NCBI GenBank assembly: GCA_003132305.1
Contig: PKXJ01000029.1
Span: 6,861-42,300 of the forward strand
Reading direction: 5' to 3'
Length of the DNA: 35,440 bases
DNA from: Acidimicrobiaceae bacterium
GTDB taxonomy: Bacteria; Actinomycetota; Acidimicrobiia; Acidimicrobiales; RAAP-2
In this document: piece by piece, positions 21,038-32,191 of the stretch
How the letters are laid out: each line of letters starts with the position of its first letter
Numbering within the stretch: position 1 is the first letter of the stretch
The notes under the pieces: model-generated
Told to the model about the DNA's origin: nothing
The model's input: the letters and a program-made list of their open reading frames with translations, nothing else
Databases searched by the model: none
Program-made: the position numbers and the translations under genes

Positions 21038-21083
21038 AGAAAGCGAGAGCCCGGTGGCGAAGGCCACCGGGCTCTCGCTTTCT
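21038..21083. terminator. Bidirectional intrinsic terminator, perfect 21-bp stem
   Basis: Positions 21038-21058 and 21063-21083 are perfectly complementary (21 bp, GC-rich core AGCCCGGTGGC) around the four-base loop 21059-21062. The A-run and T-run at the stem ends (GAAAG / CTTTC) give U-rich ends in both directions. It sits 12 bases after sodN and 4 bases after the traR-like gene, between two convergent units. Confidence 0.93.
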
Positions 21084-21354: not shown

Positions 21355-22254
21355 TTAACGCGGCACGTCAAAGTTAAAGATTGATGAGTCGTAGGCGTTG
21401 TACGACTCGTAGTCCAGCAGGTCGTAGAGTTCCGCTCGATCTTGCATCTGGTCGAGCATCGAGGCGAGGCTTCCTTCGGTTTCGATGGCCTCAAGAGCGC
21501 GAGCGGCGACCCCCATTGCCAGACGCAACAGCGAGACCGGGTAGATGATGATATTGATGCCAACGTTGGCCAGCTGGCTGGTCGTGAACAACGCACTCTT
21601 GCCGAACTCGGTCATGTTCGCCAAGATCGGAACGTCGACGGCGGCGCGGATCGTTTCGAACTCGTGCAGGTCCATCATCGCCTCGGGAAAGATCGCGTCG
21701 GCCCCCGCGTCAACGAGGGCCTTGGATCTCGCGACGGCGGCACTGAGACCTTCGACTGCTCGGATGTCCGTTCTGGCCATAACGAGCAGATTCGAGTCAC
21801 GCCGAGCGGTGACGGCGGCCCGGATTCGCCGAATGGCCGTTCCCTCATCGACCACCTGTTTTCCGTCAAGGTGACCACAGCGCTTCGGATTGACCTGATC
21901 TTCAAGGTGCAGTCCGGCGACCCCACTGTCCTCCAACACCTGCACGGTTCGCGCCACGTTCATGGGCTCGCCGAATCCGGTGTCGGCGTCGACCAGGGTC
22001 GGAAGATCGGTGACTCGGGCGATCTGGGCGCTTCGCGCGGCGACCTCGCTCAACGTGGTCAAGCCAATGTCGGGCAGACCTAGATCCGCCGCGAGCACCG
22101 CGCCCGACACGTACACGCCGTCGAAGTGCTTGCGCTCGATCAGTTTCGCGGACAGAGGATTGAACGCTCCCGGCACGACGAGCAGATCGCCCGTCGCCAA
22201 TCGTGTACGTAGTCGCACGCGCTTCTCCGCCGCGGTGACGAGTGATTGGAGCAT
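21355..22254 (-). CDS. prpB: Methylisocitrate lyase
   Basis: PrpB splits 2-methylisocitrate into pyruvate and succinate, the last step of the methylcitrate cycle for propionyl-CoA. The 299-residue protein has LVDADTGFGEPMNVARTV, HLEDQVNPKRCGHLDGK with the catalytic Cys126 of the KRCGH motif, VMARTDIRAVEGL, and the PrpB-like ILANMTEFGKSALFTT. The C-terminal half follows E. coli PrpB closely from memory, so methylisocitrate is preferred over other members of the isocitrate lyase/PEP mutase family. ATG 22254-22252 shares a base with the prpD TGA (TGATG), giving tight coupling. It is the last gene of the large leftward catabolic unit. Confidence 0.93.
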   Translation of the reverse strand: MLQSLVTAAEKRVRLRTRLATGDLLVVPGAFNPLSAKLIERKHFDGVYVSGAVLAADLGLPDIGLTTLSEVAARSAQIARVTDLPTLVDADTGFGEPMNVARTVQVLEDSGVAGLHLEDQVNPKRCGHLDGKQVVDEGTAIRRIRAAVTARRDSNLLVMARTDIRAVEGLSAAVARSKALVDAGADAIFPEAMMDLHEFETIRAAVDVPILANMTEFGKSALFTTSQLANVGINIIIYPVSLLRLAMGVAARALEAIETEGSLASMLDQMQDRAELYDLLDYESYNAYDSSIFNFDVPR

Positions 22255-23780
22255 CAGAACAGCCCCTCGGGTTCGGGGACCGACGCCAGAAGACCTGGCT
22301 TCGCACTGAAGTTGAGTTCAGTGAATTCGTTCGCCGTCAGGGCCGGCAAACGTTGCGCGGCACCGAGAAAGCGCTCGATCTCTTCGTCCTCGAGCACGTC
22401 GTTGGCCAGAGTTCGAAACTTGGCCACGTACTGCTCGCGAGCGAACGGTCGCGCCCCGAGCGGGTGGGCGTCCGGCAGGGCGATCTCGTCAACGATCGTC
22501 GTGCCGTTTGAAAGGACGATCTCGACTCGCCCACCGTACGCCTTCTCTCTCGGGTCGGAGGACAGGTATCGACGAGACCATTCGGGATCTTCCACGGTGC
22601 TCACCTTGCGCCACAGTTGGACCGTATCGGCACGCGCTGCTCGTGCGGGCGCGTACGAGTCGGCGTGGTGCCAGGAACCGTCTTGGAACGCCACGGTGAA
22701 GATGTACGGTAGCGAGTGGTCGAGCGTCTCTCGCGACGCGTTCGAGTCGAACTTTTGCGGATCGTTCGCGCCAGAGCCGATCACGTGGTGCGTGTGGTAG
22801 GAGGAGTGGATGACGACGCTCTCGATCTGTCGACCATCGAGTAGTTCGGGATGTTCAAAGTGGAGCTTGCGCGCGAGGTCAATCCACGCCTGGGCCTGGT
22901 ACTCGGCGGAGTGCTCCTTGGTGAAGCTCTCGAGTATGCCGAGCTTCGCTTCACCTCGGGCCGGCAAGGAAACCGTGTAGGAACCCTCGGGCCCGTCGAG
23001 CAGCCACGCGATCACGCCGTCTTCGCCTTCGTAGATCGGTGCCGGCGATGTCTGACCGCGCATCGCGCGGTCTACGGCTTCAATGGCGGCCTTGCCCGCG
23101 AACGCCGGGGCGTAGGCCTTCCACGTAGAGATCTCGCCCTTGCGTGATTGGCGCGTCGCGGTGGTTGTGTGCAACGCCTGACCGATCGCCTGGTAGATCA
23201 CTTCTTCGCTAAGACCGAGCAGTGTTCCAAGACCCGCCGCCACACTGGGTCCGAGGTGCGCGACGTGATCAATCTTATGCTCGTGCAAACTGATCGTGCG
23301 CGCCAACGCGATCTGTATCTCGTAGGCCGTGGCGATCGCTCGCACGACCTCGACGCCCGTCAACCCGCGAGCGGCACCGACGTGCTGTGCCACCGCCGCG
23401 ATTGGGGGAATATTGTCGCCCGGATGCGAGTACTCGGCGGCCAAGAAGGTGTCGTGAAAGTCGAGCTCGCGCACGGCGACCCCGTTGGCCCACGCTGCCC
23501 ATTCCGGGGCGACACGAACGTCGAACGTCGTACCCACCACGGTGCTGCCCGGAGAAAAACGGTGCATGGTGGCCTGCGCCCGTGCGGCGACCACCGGGCT
23601 TCGAAGGAGCGACGCGGCGGCGACCGCCGCGTTGTCAATGACACGGTTGATCACCATGTCGGTGACCTCATCAGTTGCGGCGACGGGGTCCACCGCCGCT
23701 TCGGCAATCTTCCACGCCAGCTGTTGAGTCCGAGGGAGTTCTTCGTCACTTCTATAGACGCGCACTTTATGGTCAATCAC
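22254..23780 (-). CDS. prpD: 2-Methylcitrate dehydratase (MmgE/PrpD family)
   Basis: PrpD dehydrates 2-methylcitrate to 2-methylaconitate in the methylcitrate cycle. The 508-residue protein carries [54 protein letters not shown] and, later, [17 protein letters not shown], all typical of PrpD; the arrangement resembles mycobacterial PrpD. The GTG start (23780-23778) has AAAGGA about 7 bases upstream. It is followed immediately by prpB. No prpC is present in the window, so methylcitrate synthase must be encoded elsewhere if the cycle is complete. A 108-base gap separates it from the upstream iclR gene, and I saw no obvious promoter there. Confidence 0.94.
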
Positions 23781-23888
23781 TCGATTCCTTTCGGCGCCAG
23801 CCTGCCCGACACTGGGCCGTCGCAGGGGTTCTCAGCCCACGGTCCTTCGCAGTGCACGGCCAGTCGTCAGCTCGTCTACAGGTCGCCC

Positions 23889-24656
23889 TCACGGCAGTCG
23901 TTTGGTGATCGCGGTACTCGCCCGTTTCAGCTCGACGACGCACCACTCCGCTTTGCTCTCGTTCAAGTCTTCGGTGGGGCCAGAAACTTGCAGTGACGCG
24001 ACGACGGCTCCCTCTTGACTGACGACGGGCACCGCCACCGAGGCGGCACCGAGTTCACGTTCGCTATTGCTATAGGCGTAACCCTGTTCACGGATTACTT
24101 GCAGGCTTTCGACAAATTCCTGTCGCGTGACGACCTGACCGCTCGCCAGACGAATCTCTGGGACGTCGACCATCAGTTCGGTCACTTCTTCGGGCGTCAG
24201 CGCGGCGGTGTGGATTTTGGCGCCCCCCAGGTAGAGCGGTGTGGGCTCACCCAGCGGTAACAGGTAGCGAACGGGCGCGTTGCCCTCGACGCGAAGAATC
24301 TTCACCTGCGCGAAGTCGACTCGGATCGAGAGTGACGACATGAAGCCGCTCGCGCCCGCCAACTCTTGCAAGATCGACAGCGATATCTGGCTCAGGCTGT
24401 TGGTGACGTGGAACGCGAAGCCGTTTATGACGGACGTGACGCCAATCGTGTAGCCGTACCTCTCCTGAGAGACGTAGCCATACTGCAATAAGACACTAAG
24501 GATCCGCTGGGTCGTCGCGAGATGAATACCGGACTCCAACGCGATGTCGGTGAGTCGCATGGGGACCCGACTTCGCCGAAGAATGCTGAGTATGTCGAAT
24601 GAGCGCTCGAGCGAGCGCATCGAACTCGAGGTCGAAATGCGATTTACCGCCGCCAT
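23889..24656 (-). CDS. IclR-family transcriptional regulator
   Basis: IclR proteins have an N-terminal winged helix and a C-terminal ligand-binding domain that senses small acids of the pathway they control. The helix-turn-helix spans about residues 35-58 (LTDIALESGIHLATTQRILS), followed by the wing YGYVSQERYGYTIG. The effector domain contains VRYLLPLGEPTPLYLGGAKI and SERELGAASVAVPVVSQEG, both typical positions. The open frame begins at TTG 24665; I prefer ATG 24656 (255 residues), although no strong Shine-Dalgarno marks either. It is embedded between the lyase gene and prpD on the same strand, so it is probably the local regulator and co-transcribed with its targets. Confidence 0.92.
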   Translation of the reverse strand: MAAVNRISTSSSMRSLERSFDILSILRRSRVPMRLTDIALESGIHLATTQRILSVLLQYGYVSQERYGYTIGVTSVINGFAFHVTNSLSQISLSILQELAGASGFMSSLSIRVDFAQVKILRVEGNAPVRYLLPLGEPTPLYLGGAKIHTAALTPEEVTELMVDVPEIRLASGQVVTRQEFVESLQVIREQGYAYSNSERELGAASVAVPVVSQEGAVVASLQVSGPTEDLNESKAEWCVVELKRASTAITKRLP

Positions 24657-24695
24657 AACATCCAATCGGACATTCGCGTCGCCTCGCTTGCGAGA

Positions 24696-25841
24696 TCAAG
24701 GAGCGCCATGTGTTCCCTTCGAATCAAGTCGAAGCCCTGCCCGGGCGCGCGACACGATCGGTTCCTTCCACGGTGACCGCGCTCCTTCGTACGCGCGCGA
24801 ACCCAGACGAAAGTGTTGGGCTTGCTCCTCGGTCTCGATGAAGGGCAAGTCCATTGGAAAGAGCGCGTCTCCGCGTGGTCGCGGACCCGCCTTGGTCACG
24901 TGGCCCCACAACGAATGTCCCACGACCTCTTCGGCCAGAAGCGATGCCTCGATGAGGCGACCGAGGTCGACGCCGGTGGGGACGCCGAGTTCGTTCAACA
25001 GATCCACCAGATCCTCGGTCGGTATCATGCGCGTCATGCGGCCGTGACCACCGTAGGGGCAGCCGCCCATGCCCCCAATTGAGGTGTCGAGGATCAGCGT
25101 CTGGTCTGCAGTGAGGGCCTTGAGCGCCTCGTAGGCGGACAGCAACGCCGTGCCGCGAGCGTCGTGCAGATGTAGGTGCACCGTCTCAATCTCGGGCCAT
25201 CGATCTTGAATCGCGCGCAGTTGCGACGCGACCTGATCAGGCATGTTCCACGCCATCGGGTCACCGATCCAGACCTTGTCGACTGTGACGCCCGCCGCGC
25301 TCCAGAGCTCGTGTTGGCGCTCGAGCATCGACATCCGGTACTCCTCGTCGAAGGGGCCGAGCCAGTTCGAGCCCCATGCAGCGTTGATCGCGATGCCGGC
25401 ACTGCGAGCGCCGGCGTTCACCGCTCGTTCGATGACCGCCGGCCATTCGGCGATTTCGTCTGCTTGCGACCGGTTGGTGTTGCGGCGAACAAAGACGTCA
25501 CAGAGATGAACGAACGTCCGGGGGGACCCCGAGGGCTCGCTCAGTGGCGGCATGTACTTTCGCATCCTCTCACGACCCCGTTCGTTGAGGGCGAGCGCGG
25601 TGTACGTCACACCCGCCATGGGTGTGAACCGTGAGACCAGCTCGTCGATCTGGACCATTTGCGGGGTCCACTTGGGACTGACGAAGGAGCCGACGACAAT
25701 GGTCTCCAGGCCCGTGCGCGACAGCGCGTCGAGCAACGTGATCTTGGCGTCCAAGGTGATCGCCGTGCTCTCGATCTGCATCCCTTCGCGCATCCCCTCT
25801 TCGATGATGGCGACCCTGGGATAGGAACTCTGGCGCGTCAC
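24696..25841 (-). CDS. HMG-CoA-lyase-like carbon-carbon lyase (DRE-TIM metallolyase)
   Basis: This protein belongs to the HMGL/pyruvate carboxyltransferase family, which cleaves 3-hydroxy-acyl-CoA esters such as HMG-CoA with a divalent metal. From GTG 25841-25839 it has 381 residues. The usual DGLRDGLQ catalytic loop reads EEGMREGMQ (Arg18 kept). The metal histidines are His224 and His226 in HLHLHDARG, and the reactive Cys261 is kept in SIGGMGGCPYG. The Asp-to-Glu change in the loop marks it as an uncharacterised-type homologue, so HMG-CoA should not be assumed. The start was chosen over the longer frame because AGAGAG/GGAG lies just upstream and homology begins there. It follows the CoA-transferase gene by 46 bases. 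Confidence 0.87.
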   Translation of the reverse strand: MTRQSSYPRVAIIEEGMREGMQIESTAITLDAKITLLDALSRTGLETIVVGSFVSPKWTPQMVQIDELVSRFTPMAGVTYTALALNERGRERMRKYMPPLSEPSGSPRTFVHLCDVFVRRNTNRSQADEIAEWPAVIERAVNAGARSAGIAINAAWGSNWLGPFDEEYRMSMLERQHELWSAAGVTVDKVWIGDPMAWNMPDQVASQLRAIQDRWPEIETVHLHLHDARGTALLSAYEALKALTADQTLILDTSIGGMGGCPYGGHGRMTRMIPTEDLVDLLNELGVPTGVDLGRLIEASLLAEEVVGHSLWGHVTKAGPRPRGDALFPMDLPFIETEEQAQHFRLGSRAYEGARSPWKEPIVSRARAGLRLDSKGTHGAP

Positions 25842-25887
25842 GGCTCCACTCTCTCTTCTTGAAACAGCATGCCAGTCATTCGTGTCA

Positions 25888-27090
25888 TCAGATGGCTTCC
25901 CGGTCACGGAGAGCTTCGATCTCCTCTTTGGAATAGCCGAGTTCACTGAGGATTGTGTTGGTGTGCTGACCGAGTCGCGGCGGGGGAAGCGACGGCGCCA
26001 ACGTGTGTCCGTCCACGTGCACGCCACTTCCGAGCACCTTCACGCTTGGTCGTCCCGGCACGTTGACCTCGACGTCGTGCACGAGTCCTCGCACTTTTAT
26101 CTGCTCTTGGTTCAGGGCCTGTTCGACGTTCAGCAGTCGACCAACGGGTACACTCACGTCGGCCAACATCGCTTCCCACTCCTCGGCGCTTCGCGCACTG
26201 AGCGCCGACTCCAGTTCGCGCGTGAGTTCGCTGCGATTTCGCTTGCGGTCGGCTCGGTTGAGGAACCGTTCGTCGATGATCAAATCGAGACGACCGCAGA
26301 CCTGGCACAGCGACTCGAACTGCTTTTGCGTATTGGACGCGATGTTGACGGGTCCGTCACTCGCCTGGAACGTCCCCGAAGGAGACGACGCGGCGTTGTC
26401 GTTGCCGTGTCGAAGGGCGGAGCGACCGCTGATGAGCTGCTCGGAGACCGCCCAGCTCATCGAGGTAAGCGCCGTCTCGAGCATGGAGACGTCGAGAAAG
26501 CATCCGGTCTGTTCCATCGATCGCCGCACCAACGCCGCGCAGATCGCCATCGCGGCGACGAAGCCGCCCAGGGCGTCACAGATGGGAAAGCCGACGCGAA
26601 GCGGACCGCCCGACGCCAGACCGGTGACCGAGGCCATGCCGGCAAAGCCCTGGATGATCTGGTCGTACGCGGCGCGCTCGGCGAGCGGCCCGGTCTGACC
26701 GAATCCCGAGACCGCGCAGTAGACGATCTGGGGATTGATCTCACTGATTCGCTCCCACGAGAAGCCGAGACGAGCAAGGACCCCTGGTCGCATGTTCTCC
26801 AGGAGAACGTCCGAAGAGCGCACGAGGCGCTCAAACACCTCGGCGCCCTGCTCACTCTTGAGATTCACCGTGATCGAGCGCTTACCCGAGTTTTGTGCGA
26901 GAAATGAGGGACCCATCGAAGCGGACTTCAAAACCTCATCCTCTCCGAACTCTCGCGCGACGTCGCCGGTGCCGGGGACTTCAATCTTGATGACGTCGGC
27001 GCCCATCAAGCTCAACTGGTACGCGCCGAACGGCCCCGCGAGCACCGTCGTCAGGTCGAGCACTCGTATCCCGCCAAGCAATTCGGTCAC
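25888..27090 (-). CDS. CaiB/BaiF (class III) CoA-transferase
   Basis: Class III CoA-transferases move CoA between carboxylic acids through an Asp-CoA anhydride. The 400-residue protein has LLGGIRVLDLTTVLAGPF, GADVIKIEVPGTGD, the NSGKRSITVNLKSE segment, LLENMRPGVLARLG, and the nucleophile Asp143 in SGFGQTGPLAERAAYDQ. GTG 27090-27088 has GAGGA about 8 bases upstream; the open frame extends 12 codons further without support. Next to the lyase it most likely converts the imported acid to its CoA ester. The acceptor and donor acids cannot be read from the sequence. A hairpin lies between this gene and livK. Confidence 0.93.
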   Translation of the reverse strand: MTELLGGIRVLDLTTVLAGPFGAYQLSLMGADVIKIEVPGTGDVAREFGEDEVLKSASMGPSFLAQNSGKRSITVNLKSEQGAEVFERLVRSSDVLLENMRPGVLARLGFSWERISEINPQIVYCAVSGFGQTGPLAERAAYDQIIQGFAGMASVTGLASGGPLRVGFPICDALGGFVAAMAICAALVRRSMEQTGCFLDVSMLETALTSMSWAVSEQLISGRSALRHGNDNAASSPSGTFQASDGPVNIASNTQKQFESLCQVCGRLDLIIDERFLNRADRKRNRSELTRELESALSARSAEEWEAMLADVSVPVGRLLNVEQALNQEQIKVRGLVHDVEVNVPGRPSVKVLGSGVHVDGHTLAPSLPPPRLGQHTNTILSELGYSKEEIEALRDREAI

Positions 27091-27217
27091 GATTCGTTCC
27101 TCACGTGGGGGCCCGGCATCGTCCAACGCCAGGCGCTACTTTGCACCGCACTGATTGATTGCGTCTTGCGCACCACGTCAACACTGTTCAACGTTCTGTC
27201 GCGCCAACAACTCGGTG

Positions 27218-27282: not shown

Positions 27283-28572
27283 TTAACCCTCCTTGGCCAC
27301 AACGGCCGCGAGCTGGGCGGGAGTGACGTACGCCCGGGTCACGTTGCTCAGGCTGGAGTCAAAACCGATCATCTGGAAGCCACTGAAGACATTGTGAAAC
27401 TTGTTGAAGTCGTCACTGCCAGAAGCACCGTTGTAGTTGATCTGCTTATGCTGCTTGATTAACTTGACGCACGTGGCGTAGGTTCCACACACGACGCCCG
27501 GTGGGTCCGCGACCTTCGTCACGTCCTTCACCCAGACCTTCGGGTCGGTGGACTTCGCCATGGTCATGGCGAGCGACGCGATGACGATCGAGTCGTACTC
27601 GTTGAACGTCGTGGGCAATATCGTCGTGGTCTTCCACACCGACTGGTAGTCGGCGAGGAAGTGGCTGTACGCGCCGTCCGCCGTCGTCGGTGTCGCCGGC
27701 AGCGCCGCCGTCAAGTCGGTGGACGCGGTGGGACCAAAGGACTTGGCGTAGGCACCTTGGGGTGCTGACTGCAAGTCGTCACCAATCCACGGCGTCGACA
27801 TGTAACCGAGCTGCTGACCGTCCGAGAACAACGTGGCGGCCGTCTGGGTGTCCATGGAGTCAAAGATGACCTGAGGCTTTCCCGCGAACGCCGATGTCAG
27901 TTCAGAGCTGTACGACGACTGACCGGGGGTGAGCGTGATGTTCTGCTGGATCGTGCCGCCCAGCGCCTTGAAGGCCGCTTCGAGAGGCGCGATGAAGCCC
28001 TGGGAGTTCGCCGAGTTGTCGAAAATCAACGACGCCGTCTTCCAACCCTTGCTGATCGCGTACTGCGCCATTGCGATCGACTCGTTGGAGTCGGACGAGG
28101 AGGTGCGGAACACGAACTTCTGCTTCATGTTGTCCAGAGTCGTCAGTCCACCGACCATGAAGTCCACGACGTCATTGGGCTGGAACTGGTTGATGATCCC
28201 TTCAATTGTTGGTGAGAACGGCCCGACGATGACCTTCGGGTGGCTCAACTCCAACTTGCGAAACGCGGGGAGCACGTCCACCGAGTCCGCGGCGTCATCG
28301 ACGTAGACGCTCTTCAGTTGGTCACCCAAGACACCGCCGTTGTGGTTGATCTCGTAGACACCCACGGCCACGCCGTGCGTTCCCCAACTCGAGAGCAGTG
28401 ACTTCGTTCCCGTAAACGGAAAGATGCCACCGACCACCAGCTTCGTCTTCGATTTACTCGCGCTCGCGGTGCCGCTCGTCAAGCCAATACCGGCGAGCGT
28501 TGACACCATGGCCAGAACCAGCATCACTCTGGCACCCCCGCGGCGACCGGCTATTTTCCTAATAGATTTCAT
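27283..28572 (-). CDS. livK: ABC transporter periplasmic-type substrate-binding protein (LivK-like)
   Basis: This is the type I periplasmic-binding-fold receptor of a branched-chain-amino-acid-type (HAAT) importer. It has a Sec signal peptide (MKSIRKIAGRRGG.. followed by MLVLAMVSTLAGIGL) with a likely cut after ASA, and no lipobox Cys. The mature domain begins LVVGGIFPFTGTKS and contains GVYEINHNGGVLG, VIVGPFSPT and LTPGQSSYSSELTS. ATG 28572-28570 is preceded by a strong AAAAGGAGGA, the best ribosome site in the operon, as expected for the most abundant component. HAAT receptors also bind amides, aromatic acids and dicarboxylates, so the ligand is open. It comes last of the five transporter genes, 59 bases after livF. 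Confidence 0.92.
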   Translation of the reverse strand: MKSIRKIAGRRGGARVMLVLAMVSTLAGIGLTSGTASASKSKTKLVVGGIFPFTGTKSLLSSWGTHGVAVGVYEINHNGGVLGDQLKSVYVDDAADSVDVLPAFRKLELSHPKVIVGPFSPTIEGIINQFQPNDVVDFMVGGLTTLDNMKQKFVFRTSSSDSNESIAMAQYAISKGWKTASLIFDNSANSQGFIAPLEAAFKALGGTIQQNITLTPGQSSYSSELTSAFAGKPQVIFDSMDTQTAATLFSDGQQLGYMSTPWIGDDLQSAPQGAYAKSFGPTASTDLTAALPATPTTADGAYSHFLADYQSVWKTTTILPTTFNEYDSIVIASLAMTMAKSTDPKVWVKDVTKVADPPGVVCGTYATCVKLIKQHKQINYNGASGSDDFNKFHNVFSGFQMIGFDSSLSNVTRAYVTPAQLAAVVAKEG

Positions 28573-28631
28573 TCGGCACTTCCTCCTTTTGTTACTTTCA
28601 TTTACTTCAAGCCCGTGGGAATTTCCCACTG

Positions 28632-29351
28632 TTACGAACTCGTAGCCTCCGCTCGACCCAAGAAGATGGCGGCCAGGTCGTGCTTGGCGATCTCCGACGT
28701 GGGACCGTGCATGTGGTTGGAACCCGCCACGAAGATGTGCACGAAATCGGCGTGCGCGAGGGCACGTTCGACGTTCTGTTCGACCACCAACACCGCGGTG
28801 CCAGACTTGGCGATGAGATCGATCTGGTTCCAGACGACGTCGGTGTAGGCCGGCGACAGTCCGGCGGTGGGCTCGTCGAGGACAATCACCGTGGGCTCGA
28901 CCATGAGTGAGCGCGCGATCGCCAACAGGTTCTGTTGACCACCTGAGAGGTACCCGGCCTTCTTGCCTTGGGCCTTCTTCAGGTCGGTGAAGATGTCGAG
29001 AATCTCTTCCAGCCGGGCGTCGGTGTTTCCTCGAACGGCGAAGCCGCCGACTTCTAGATTCTCGCGAACCGTCAAGTTCGTAAAGACGTTCTCATTTTGC
29101 GGAACGTAGACCAGCCCGTTGCGCGGAATCAGATGACCCGGCATCTTCGTGATGTCCAGGTCGTTGACGACGATTCGCCCCGTCACCGCGCGCAAGACCC
29201 CCACGAGGGTCTTGGCGTAAGTCGACTTCCCCGCACCGTTAGGCCCGATGATCGCGGTGATGGTGCCCACGTCGGCCGAGAGCGATATGTCGTTGATGAT
29301 GGGCGTACGACCGTAGCCGGCCGTGATATTTTCAGTTATGAGGGCCGGCAT
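28632..29351 (-). CDS. livF: Branched-chain-type ABC transporter ATP-binding protein LivF
   Basis: LivF is one of the two ATPases of the HAAT importer. The 239-residue protein has Walker A GPNGAGKST, the Q-loop region LVYVPQNENVFTNLTVREN, the signature LSGGQQNLLAIARSLM and Walker B VIVLDEPTAG, ending with ALAHADFVHIFVAG. ATG 29351-29349 overlaps the livG 3' end by 20 bases. Subfamily assignment to LivF over LivG rests on the shorter length and on VPQNENVF, the typical LivF Q-loop context. Confidence 0.95.
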   Translation of the reverse strand: MPALITENITAGYGRTPIINDISLSADVGTITAIIGPNGAGKSTYAKTLVGVLRAVTGRIVVNDLDITKMPGHLIPRNGLVYVPQNENVFTNLTVRENLEVGGFAVRGNTDARLEEILDIFTDLKKAQGKKAGYLSGGQQNLLAIARSLMVEPTVIVLDEPTAGLSPAYTDVVWNQIDLIAKSGTAVLVVEQNVERALAHADFVHIFVAGSNHMHGPTSEIAKHDLAAIFLGRAEATSS

Positions 29352-30156
29352 TGATGATCTCTCCTAGGTACGCCTGGACCACTTCGGGGTTGGCACGGAG
29401 TTCGCTGAGGCGACCAGTCGCCAGCGTCCGCCCTTCCGCCAAGACGATCACGTTGTCACAGATCTTTTCCACGACGTTGAGGTTGTGTTCGATCATGAGT
29501 ACCGTCATGCCTTGGCGCTTCATGTCGAGGATGTAGCCGCCGATGCGTTCAATGAGCGCCGGGTTCACGCCCGCCATGGGCTCGTCGAGCAAGAAGAGGC
29601 TGGGTGAGGCCATGACGCCCCGCGAGATTTCGAGCAACTTCTTCTGGCCCCCCGAGAGCTCGCGCGCCAGACTGTCTCGAAGCTCGTAGAGACCGTACGT
29701 GCGCAGTATCTCGGTCGCGCGCTCGATGTTCTGACGCTCCTCGCGCTTCAAGAGACGCGGGCGAAAGAAGATGTTGAACAGCGACTCCCCCGCTTGGACC
29801 TTGGGCGCGACCAGGAGATTCTCCAGCACCGTGAGACCCCCGAGTTCGCGCGACAACTGGAACGTTCGCATGAGGCCCAAGCGCGCGATCTTGTACCGTT
29901 CCCAATTCGTCACGTCAGTTGAACCCATGTGCACGGTGCCGGAGTCACACTTCATCGCGCCGGAGATGATGTTGACGACGGTCGTTTTGCCCGCGCCATT
30001 GGGACCGATGAGCGCCGTGATCTTGCCTTTGGGAACGTCGAACGTCGCGCCGTTGACGGCGTTGACGCCGAGAAACGACTTGGTGATGTCCTGGCAACGA
30101 AGGATCGGCTCGTTGACCTGATCGACCGGGGAGTTCATCTCATCACGCGTCGTCAT
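29332..30156 (-). CDS. livG: Branched-chain-type ABC transporter ATP-binding protein LivG
   Basis: LivG is the second ATPase of the importer. The 274-residue protein has ITKSFLGVNAVNGATFDV, Walker A GPNGAGKTT, the Q-loop segment GLMRTFQLSRELGGLTVLEN, signature LSGGQKKLLEISRGVM, Walker B LFLLDEPMAGVNP and the H-loop MIEHNLNVV. The insertion between the Q-loop and signature (APKVQAGESLFNIFF) is typical of LivG. ATG 30156-30154 overlaps the livM stop as ATGA. About 17 extra residues precede the first strand. Confidence 0.95.
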   Translation of the reverse strand: MTTRDEMNSPVDQVNEPILRCQDITKSFLGVNAVNGATFDVPKGKITALIGPNGAGKTTVVNIISGAMKCDSGTVHMGSTDVTNWERYKIARLGLMRTFQLSRELGGLTVLENLLVAPKVQAGESLFNIFFRPRLLKREERQNIERATEILRTYGLYELRDSLARELSGGQKKLLEISRGVMASPSLFLLDEPMAGVNPALIERIGGYILDMKRQGMTVLMIEHNLNVVEKICDNVIVLAEGRTLATGRLSELRANPEVVQAYLGEIINAGPHN

Positions 30157-31220
30157 GACTCGTCCTTCTCGTCAACGTTGCGCAACGCCGCAGAATCCGT
30201 CGCCGTCATCACTGAAGACGGTGAGGTGGGAACGACCACTTGTTGACCGTCTGACTTCGAAAACGTCGACAGCAGCGGACTGCGGCGAACTCGCTCGGGA
30301 ATCATTCCCTGGGGACGGAACCAGAGCATCACCATGAGGAGAATGCCGATCAGCATGGCGTCGATGTACTGGATCAATTCGGGGTGCCCCGGTATATCGG
30401 GTAGGAAGGCTGGTAGGTGGATCAACAACGTCTCGACGAGAAGTGCGCCAACGAGCAGGCCCAAGTTGTTGCCCACCCCGCCAACGATGATGACCGCGAA
30501 GATGACAAACGTCTCGCCGGGTAGCCAGGCCGAGGTGTTGAACGAGCCACCGAATTGGATGATCAACCCGCCGCCGATGCCGGCGTAGAAAGCGCCAATC
30601 AACATCGACGTCAGCTGGTAGCGAAAGACACCCTTGCCGAGTGCCGCCGCGACGTCCGCGTCGTCGCGAATCGCCCGAAACGTACGCCCCAATGGTGAGC
30701 GGGTGATCCGACTCATCAAGAACCACAGAATGAGCGCCACGGCGGCCGTGACGCCCGCGAAAAACGGCACGAAGGAGTTGGTGGTCAGCTTGAAGACGCT
30801 GGCCATGGGCTCGGGAACGTTGTACAGACCGTCGGCGCCGTTGAACAAGCGCACGTAGTTGTTGATGAGGTCCCAGAGGACCAGCGAGAGCGAGATCAAG
30901 ACCATGGCCAAGTAGTCGGTGCGCAATCGGCGCAGAGTAATCAATGCCACGAAGAGGGCTAGCGCACTCGCCGCCAGTCCCCCGATGATCAGGTTGATCG
31001 GAAACGGCAATGACAGGCCGAGGATGTACTGCTGACCGGTGCCGGCGGAACTGGGCAGACTCACCGCACCCGTGACGTACGAGCCAATCGCGACGAACCC
31101 GATGTAGGCGAAGTTGAGGATTCCCGTTTCGCCGTACTGGATGTTCAGGCCCATCGCCAAAATGAAGTAGTCGAAGAGGAAAAAGATGAGGGTGAAGACG
31201 TAGTACCAAAACGCGGGCAT
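30153..31220 (-). CDS. livM: Branched-chain-type ABC transporter permease LivM
   Basis: LivM is one of two permease subunits of the importer. The 355-residue protein is strongly hydrophobic with about eight to ten membrane helices. It carries AMGLNIQYGETGILNFAYIG near the start, LRRLRTDYLAMVLISLSL, and the cytoplasmic coupling region ITRSPLGRTFRAIRDDADVA, all characteristic of LivM. It ends with a soluble tail after LMVMLWFRPQGMIP of some 55 residues (including SSVMTATDSAAL), somewhat longer than usual. ATG 31220-31218 lies two bases after the livH stop. Confidence 0.95.
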   Translation of the reverse strand: MPAFWYYVFTLIFFLFDYFILAMGLNIQYGETGILNFAYIGFVAIGSYVTGAVSLPSSAGTGQQYILGLSLPFPINLIIGGLAASALALFVALITLRRLRTDYLAMVLISLSLVLWDLINNYVRLFNGADGLYNVPEPMASVFKLTTNSFVPFFAGVTAAVALILWFLMSRITRSPLGRTFRAIRDDADVAAALGKGVFRYQLTSMLIGAFYAGIGGGLIIQFGGSFNTSAWLPGETFVIFAVIIVGGVGNNLGLLVGALLVETLLIHLPAFLPDIPGHPELIQYIDAMLIGILLMVMLWFRPQGMIPERVRRSPLLSTFSKSDGQQVVVPTSPSSVMTATDSAALRNVDEKDES

Positions 31221-31222
31221 GC

Positions 31223-32101
31223 CTAGGCCCTTCCGGGCCGGGCAAACAAGCCATTGGGCCTGAACAACAAGGTCAGTATCAAGATGACGAACGCGACGTC
31301 CAGCTTGTAGGACGCGTTAAAGAAGGCGGCGGAGATTTCGGTGGCGAGTCCAATCAGCACCGCTCCGGCCATCGCTCCGTAGATGCTTCCCACGCCGCCC
31401 ACGATGACGGCGGCAAAGATCACGAAGAGGAACAGTTCACCCGGGGCCGGCGTGACGTTGCCCTCGGTGATGCCCAGCACCGATCCCGCGAGACCGGCGA
31501 GGGTCCCTGACAGAAACCACGTGATGGTGGTGATGCGGCGGGTGTCAATGCCGCTCGTCATGGCCAGCGTGGTGTTGTCGGACATCGCGCGCATCGACTT
31601 GCCGAGTCGGGTGGTCTTCAGCATGAGGTGCACGAGCAGCATCATGACCACCGAGATGGCCATGACGATCAATTGGTTCCTCGTCAACAAGAAGGGACCG
31701 ATGTGCAGGACTTGCTCGATCTTCATGTTGTACGCGCGAACGTTTGCTCCCCAGATCGAATAGATCGCGTTCAAGATGATGAGCGAGAGACCGAAGGTGA
31801 CGATCAGTACGTAGAAGGTCTTATTGAACCGCCGGGCGAAGGGACCGAGAAGAAAGTGATTGAACAGCACGGCCAAGAGCCCCATGCAGAGGGATCCGCC
31901 CACGAGCGCTATCCAGACGTTCAAGTGGAGGAATTCGGAGTTCAGGGCGTAGGTAAAGTACGCACCGAGGGCCATGAAGTCCCCGTAGGCAAAATTGATG
32001 TAGTTCGTGATACCGAACTGCAGACTCAGCCCGACGGCCGCGATCGCGAGTACCGAGGCCGTGACAAGGCCGAAGCCGAATGCCAACCAGAACTGGGCCA
32101 C
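31223..32101 (-). CDS. livH: Branched-chain-type ABC transporter permease LivH
   Basis: LivH is the other permease subunit and the first gene of the ten-gene leftward unit. The 292-residue protein has the helix-rich layout of the family with AVGLSLQFGITNYINFAYGD near the N-terminus and the coupling loop TTRLGKSMRAMSDNTTLA, then GIDTRRITTITWFLSGTLAG. GTG 32101-32099 has a G-run (GGGGGGAAGA) immediately upstream as ribosome site. The open frame continues to 32191 but crosses the predicted promoter, so it is not used. The final segment LLFRPNGLFARPGRA is typical. Confidence 0.95.
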   Translation of the reverse strand: MAQFWLAFGFGLVTASVLAIAAVGLSLQFGITNYINFAYGDFMALGAYFTYALNSEFLHLNVWIALVGGSLCMGLLAVLFNHFLLGPFARRFNKTFYVLIVTFGLSLIILNAIYSIWGANVRAYNMKIEQVLHIGPFLLTRNQLIVMAISVVMMLLVHLMLKTTRLGKSMRAMSDNTTLAMTSGIDTRRITTITWFLSGTLAGLAGSVLGITEGNVTPAPGELFLFVIFAAVIVGGVGSIYGAMAGAVLIGLATEISAAFFNASYKLDVAFVILILTLLFRPNGLFARPGRA

Positions 32102-32124: not shown

Positions 32125-32155
32125 AACCGCAGGCCTCGTATGGTCTCCTGCGGTT
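32125..32155 (-). promoter_or_regulatory. Perfect 9-bp inverted repeat at the predicted liv transcription start
   Basis: AACCGCAGG (32125-32133) and CCTGCGGTT (32147-32155) are exact inverted copies with a 13-base spacer, centre-to-centre 22 bases, about two helical turns. They begin one or two bases after the predicted start of transcription and end 23 bases before livH. It may be a repressor operator (IclR is the obvious candidate) or a 5'-leader stem-loop in the mRNA. Confidence 0.65.
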
Positions 32156-32162
32156 GTGAGAG

Positions 32163-32191
32163 TTTCTATCGCAGTTTTCGACGCTTGTCAA
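32163..32191 (-). promoter_or_regulatory. Predicted sigma-70-type promoter of the liv-prp unit
   Basis: On the minus strand a consensus -35 TTGACA (32191-32186) is followed after 17 bases by TAGAAA (32168-32163). This is the best two-box promoter in the window. Transcription would start near 32156, leaving a leader of about 55 bases before livH. Confidence 0.7.

Follow-up and report, generated by a model that had tools for sequence, protein, structure and literature searches.

An inverted repeat at the start of a liv-type operon

What is the function of a perfect inverted repeat that lies at the predicted transcription start of a transporter operon? In the stretch of DNA analysed here (35,440 nt of an Acidimicrobiaceae contig, the window), the arms AACCGCAGG (32155-32147) and CCTGCGGTT (32133-32125) are 100% complementary, separated by 13 nt, and located on the minus strand just downstream of a TTGACA-17-TAGAAA promoter (32191-32163) that was read directly from the sequence. 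Letters and coordinates proved to be as a first-pass annotation had given them. That annotation proposed either a site at which a repressor blocks initiation or a 5′-terminal RNA stem-loop, and the window's own copy alone could not decide between an RNA hairpin and a DNA operator.

The promoter precedes a gene for a livH-type permease (31223-32101, minus strand, with a GTG start codon at 32101-32099), the first in a series of codirectional genes that presumably form one operon (32101-21355). Genes for livM, livG, livF and a substrate-binding protein follow (27283-31220, minus strand), the first three named by reading their translations and the last by Pfam, with support from the order in relatives. 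Behind them lie genes for a CaiB-type CoA-transferase, an HMGL-like lyase, an IclR-family regulator, and PrpD-like and PrpB-like proteins (21355-27126, minus strand). PrpB reaches the curated NCBIfam cut-off (TIGR02317) and PrpD falls below its own (817 of 950 bits). This gene order is common to many relatives. The presence of CaiB, HMGL-like, PrpD-like and PrpB-like proteins behind a liv transporter suggests uptake coupled to CoA-dependent breakdown, and the gene content would suggest a branched or tricarboxylic acid as the substrate. Past prpB, at a distance of about 270 nt from its end, lies a likely terminator (21038-21083), a perfect hairpin with arms of at least 21 bp and a GAAG loop.

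Judged by sigma-70/SigA criteria, the livH promoter combines a -35 box (32186-32191, minus strand) that matches TTGACA at 6/6 positions and a 17-nt spacer, both shared with promoters of this class, with a -10 box (32163-32168, minus strand) that matches TATAAT at 4/6 positions. Unlike the usual -10 box, TAGAAA lacks the final T, and it is constrained by a palindrome in which it is embedded; the site was absent from the output of a sigma-70 scan because the scan demands that T. The term "consensus promoter" in the first-pass annotation is thus apt for the -35 box and overstated for the -10 box, although the whole block is strictly conserved, with TTGA fixed 17 nt from GATAG in 25 exact sites in the genus. 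From the spacing to the -10 box, transcription is predicted to start at 32157, 32156 or 32155 on the minus strand. Downstream, 23 nt separate the repeat from the livH start codon and are made up of 13 nt, a G-rich Shine-Dalgarno sequence (GGGGGG, 32111-32106, minus strand) and AAGA.

A chance palindrome that happens to lie near a promoter has to be considered, as the window has 6 separate places with perfect repeats of 9-bp arms and loops of 3-20 nt (14 matches including nested ones) and ten shuffled windows contained a mean of 5.4 matches each. With about five such repeats per shuffled window, the reported one is unremarkable on a window-wide scale. Within the 110 nt around the livH promoter, however, a perfect 9-bp-arm repeat arose in just 0.35% of 2000 shuffles. 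The other five places lie inside listed reading frames (four) or between converging gene ends (one, at 21042), which fits the remark that this is the only perfect repeat in front of an operon. When the genome (2.9 Mb in 35 contigs, 95% complete) was scanned for the arms with up to 3 mismatches, the single perfect copy was accompanied by one other place, at 3 mismatches.

Orthologous leaders conserve a promoter block

A protein search at E 1e-80 or better found livH in 24 of 99 genomes of the genus, with 25 matches (two in G049). Upstream of livH, a block of the form TTGA-N17-GATAGnAACTnTCA is strictly conserved: when up to one mismatch was allowed, 25 exact sites were found in 22 of the 99 genus genomes, and none with one mismatch. 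The 73 genomes from other genera of the family contributed one site with one mismatch, for a family total of 23 of 172 genomes, and a reversed-pattern control gave 3 in the 172 genomes. Addition of the variant L005, which reads TGATATGAACTATCA without TTGA at the 17-nt spacing and also runs into livH, brought the set to 26 distinct leader sequences. The longest G run before the start codon measures 5-8 in 25 of these 26, L115 being the leader that departs before the run is complete.

Twenty-three of the exact sites run into a livH start. The other two are L115 (G057), which departs from the conserved leader inside the Shine-Dalgarno sequence, and L116 (G068), which keeps the first few livH codons before it departs. 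Both contigs end 176-178 nt past the palindrome start, and the breaks into unrelated sequence may reflect either assembly breaks or rearrangement at the promoter; in G068, livH is found on a contig other than that of L116. Five leaders in all (L105, L115, L116, L118 and L123) end at contig ends 98-272 nt past the palindrome start and were kept in the counts. Three genomes (G038, G049 and G076) each carry two copies of the block on different contigs, and the two livH genes in G049 would suggest duplicated operons. In two of the 24 livH-bearing genomes, G033 and G039 (L026 and L025), the match is a 57-58% identical paralog with a different promoter. These two loci, and also L092 and L093, belong to a paralog operon with caiB and hmgl in which a hairpin-like CCGTTC stretch again precedes 7 consecutive G, here too distant from the start for a Shine-Dalgarno role.

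The arms of the repeat itself were not kept, even in close relatives, so repression through this sequence, one of the two roles first proposed, is unsupported and the repeat was rejected as a conserved operator. The presence of the same repeat before orthologous operons, the proposed test of its function, thus failed for the sequence but held for the structure, which recurs in most lineages as described below.

A hairpin of changing sequence follows the promoter

Alignment with MAFFT and alifold yielded no common RNA structure in the nine-sequence CGATAG subgroup because the letters are too divergent, and each leader was therefore folded individually and compared with shuffled versions of itself. 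In most leaders the segment between the palindrome and the G run folds into a hairpin, the sequence of which varies widely (mean z of the 26 leaders -1.91, 13 of them at p ≤0.05). The first paired base lies at index 1-3 from the last A of the palindrome in 22 of the 26, and at 4, 6, 6 and 7 in the others.

Both the 34-nt folding window and the grouping of leaders into 15 clusters at 0.75 similarity were chosen after looking at the leaders, and a scan of 47 offsets from -150 to +120 relative to the palindrome start served as a guard. Folding excess peaked at +12, +14 and +18 (15-cluster mean z of -1.93, -2.04 and -1.33; t of -6.5, -5.5 and -4.4). The peak had a shoulder at +6 (-1.10), and milder dips appeared elsewhere in the scan (-0.94 at -54 and -0.78 at -30). 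Eleven of the 15 clusters had a mean z below -1, with L007 at -1.00, and four (L005, L019, L023 and L116) showed a weak excess with a mean z above -1. Control promoters of the form TTGACA-17-TAnnnT from the same genome (11 of 12, with L151 left out) gave a mean z of -0.57 and differed from the livH clusters at p 0.011. A position kept across 11 sequence-divergent clusters, like the 0.35% frequency in shuffled promoter regions, argues against a chance palindrome, to which we give only the slimmest probability.

When the folding analysis was run again, the excess was stronger on the sense strand than on the antisense strand (mean z -1.92 vs. -1.14, Wilcoxon p 0.018; sense stronger in 21 of 26 leaders), and 34 of the 255 pairs in the leader hairpins are G-U pairs. 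Because the excess is stronger on the sense strand, the element is probably RNA. The window's own repeat is nearly strand-symmetric (sense z -4.73, antisense -4.86), and its perfect pairing in either strand explains why it drew attention in the first place; its whole 71-nt leader is unexceptional (z -1.33). Compensatory changes are few and come from three comparisons (L116 vs. L010; L118 vs. L020; L003 vs. L004 and L006), and several hairpin pairs are broken between relatives within leader subgroups.

These data bear on whether a repressor (IclR or another protein) uses the 9-13-9 repeat itself as its DNA operator, bound at the start site to arms two helical turns apart. Its geometry would suit such a role, as 22 bp separate the centres of the two perfect arms at +1; a survey of the IclR family describes tandem sites about two turns apart as common (PMC8222616), and the window's copy folds equally well on both strands. 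The arm letters are unique in the genome, however, and orthologs lack them even when their IclR has an identical recognition helix, and the hairpins of relatives use G-U pairs and fold better as sense RNA. We consider this operator very unlikely. A 5′-end RNA hairpin is favoured instead, since the letters change, the place is fixed and folding is on average better in the sense strand. The reported repeat (32125-32155, minus strand) most likely forms a small hairpin with which the livH operon mRNA begins. The suggestion of a 5′-terminal stem-loop is thereby supported by hairpins that occupy the same place, with other letters and with G-U pairs, in most orthologous leaders.

Known classes of leader element were also considered. 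An intrinsic terminator or attenuator was rejected: the stem is followed by ACGTCATTTATTTGGGGGG, and no terminator-like site was found between 31000 and 33400. A known riboswitch or leader RNA was likewise rejected, there being no match to a curated Rfam family; at gathering score, a search of the whole window returned only a tRNA, and the promoter region gave merely two irrelevant plus-strand matches near E 1.

A palindrome over the -10 box is a candidate IclR operator

The conserved block contains a 15-bp palindrome, CGATAGAAACTCTCA in the window (32171-32157, minus strand) and TGATAGnAACTATCA as the family consensus, which overlaps the -10 box and ends at or beside the predicted start. The first-pass annotation had missed it. 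Among the 25 exact sites it varies only at the first base (T/C), one central base (A/G) and one base of the right arm (A/C/T); it reads TGATAG-nAA-CTATCA in L023 and L024 and has CTCTCA or CTTTCA as its right arm in the other exact sites. Searched alone as TGATAGnAACTnTCA, a pattern that leaves out the CGATAG variant found in the window and eight other leaders, the palindrome gave 16 sites in 14 of the 99 genus genomes and none in the control; from this near-single occurrence per genome it is essentially one site per operon. Regulon-wide copies were not seen in the window's own genome, where a scan for GATAGAAACTNTCA that allowed 2 mismatches matched at 24 places (13 in the control), of which the livH site alone was exact, none had one mismatch and 23 had two. 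In 5 of 26 leaders the main palindrome is preceded by a second one of this type, which is weaker (p ≤0.02), at -41 in L013, L016, L017 and L019 and at -43 in L014, or about four helical turns away. The -41 position had the best average of the 86 tested; in the window this second palindrome is absent (best p 0.38).

A candidate repressor is encoded within the operon itself. The IclR-family protein (23889-24665, minus strand) carries HTH_IclR and IclR_C domains (PF09339 and PF01614, both above curated cut-offs) and resembles the solved chains 2o0y and 1mkm. The IclR-family survey distinguishes two palindrome types and gives TGRAACAN1-2TGTTYCA as the group-2 consensus (PMC8222616). With group-2 operators the livH palindrome shares a 6-3-6 layout and TGA...TCA ends (PMC8222616), as well as a location near a gene start and beside an operon-encoded IclR; in contrast, its inner half-site letters are TAG/CTA rather than RAAC/GTTY. 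Most site centres in the same survey fall 20-80 nt upstream of gene starts (PMC8222616), and that of the livH palindrome lies about 63 nt upstream of the GTG.

The co-occurrence of regulator and block was scored at 55 named loci of 56 (L107, a weak match, was left out). Both features could be judged at 27 of them: 15 have the block and iclR, 10 have neither, 2 have iclR without the block (L087 and L089, both Microbacteriaceae), and none has the block without iclR. At the remaining 28, the contig ends too early (6 with the block and 20 without) or upstream sequence is missing (2, one of them with iclR). This linkage is confounded by phylogeny, because the block was found only in the genus and the loci judged to have neither feature apparently lie outside it. 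All 17 IclR proteins of the genus that were compared share an identical recognition helix, HLATTQR, at an overall identity to that of the window of 45-79%; in L087 and L089 the helix differs by one residue. In TtgV, according to the survey's account of that protein, Ser48, Thr49, Gln51 and Arg52 contact DNA directly (PMC8222616). With the Gln-Arg pair aligned, three of these four contact residues would be present in HLATTQR, with Ala in place of Ser48. Taken together, the palindrome at 32171-32157 is the probable repressor site, rather than the reported repeat; repression of the livH promoter by the local IclR, as first proposed, is thus plausible but would act through a different sequence. 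An IclR site is said, in work by Pan et al. from 1996, to overlap the aceBAK promoter.

The palindrome could instead be bound by another regulator, for example of the MarR or TetR type. Within the half-sites its core departs from the group-2 consensus in the literature, and in another genus (L124, G161) a perfect TGATAGTAACTATCA palindrome precedes a gene named MarR-like from its translation, hinting that such palindromes may serve other regulator families and making a MarR-type binder possible. The 15 of 15 judged block-bearing loci that encode IclR, the invariant recognition helix, and a block that is nearly unique per genome, as expected of a local regulator, make a different binder unlikely.

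A proposed two-element control region

Our preferred explanation, to which we assign a probability of roughly 0.55, is that the operon's IclR blocks initiation at the palindrome and that the transcript starts with a stabilising stem-loop and a G-rich Shine-Dalgarno sequence. The control head of the liv-caiB-hmgl-iclR-prpD-prpB operon would then consist of two elements. IclR bound to CGATAGAAACTCTCA, which covers the region from the -10 box to the start site, would repress by blocking RNA polymerase, and a ligand, probably a substrate of the operon, would release it. The transcript would begin with the stem-loop (32155-32125), or no more than about 3 nt from it, followed by the G-rich Shine-Dalgarno sequence, and the stem-loop would shield the 5′ end from pyrophosphohydrolase and from entry of RNase E and RNase J, thereby stabilising the long polycistronic mRNA. 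IclR binding, repression and mRNA stabilisation are all predictions from comparative sequence data. The poor -10 box, TAGAAA, counts against this explanation.

Stem-loops that stabilise mRNA from the 5′ terminus are known from ompA and papA of E. coli and from aprE of B. subtilis. As with these, the livH stem would start no more than about 3 nt from the 5′ end predicted here, with single-stranded RNA and then a strong Shine-Dalgarno sequence downstream. The livH hairpin differs in that species share it despite the turnover of its sequence, and in that it comes from a genus known from metagenome assemblies. Published work describes how such structures act: in E. coli RppH is hindered when the message starts with a hairpin, and such a hairpin can stabilise bla mRNA; in B. 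subtilis, messages are stabilised by a hairpin or a ribosome-binding site close to the 5′ end (PMC3997798). A second article adds that ompA messages without a start codon stay stable given a strong Shine-Dalgarno sequence, and that mutations in the ribosome-binding site shorten the half-life of aprE (PMC7509114). B. subtilis RppH, as described in the former article, requires a minimum of two unpaired nucleotides at the 5′ end, with a preference for at least three; a start at 32157 would leave up to three in many leaders, which that enzyme would accept (PMC3997798), and protection therefore depends on the exact start.

A genuine RNA hairpin might, on the other hand, act on translation or transcription rather than on mRNA decay, through ribosome standby, access to the start codon, early pausing, or binding of an RNA-binding protein or ligand. 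The window's hairpin ends 13 nt upstream of the Shine-Dalgarno sequence, and a conserved position fits several physical roles. The Shine-Dalgarno sequence is outside the hairpin, however, the lack of conservation in both stem and loop argues against a ligand or protein motif, and neither the Rfam searches, in which no leader family reached the gathering score and the weak matches were irrelevant, nor the search for terminator-like sites gave a candidate for such a role. We regard action on translation or transcription as a possibility to be taken seriously, although a minority one.

Implications

Our literature search, limited to open-licence PMC articles, found no paper on the element at the livH promoter. 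The hairpin and the operator candidate are of known kinds; their combination, and the turnover of sequence at a fixed position, are of moderate interest. A broader interpretation, offered tentatively and as doubtful, is that selection in this genus-specific module keeps only the existence of a hairpin and its 5′-terminal position, while the sequence turns over almost freely. If this is true, the hairpin would be a letter-free protective cap directly 3′ of a fixed repressor site, and transcriptional release and mRNA survival would be set by adjoining elements around +1. Literal sequence conservation would be the wrong test for repeats of this type. In a lineage for which metagenomes are the main source of knowledge, the locus would provide a natural example of a 5′ mRNA hairpin seemingly selected for structure and position, not letters, beside an invariant candidate operator, and the local IclR of a liv-type uptake operon gains a concrete candidate operator.
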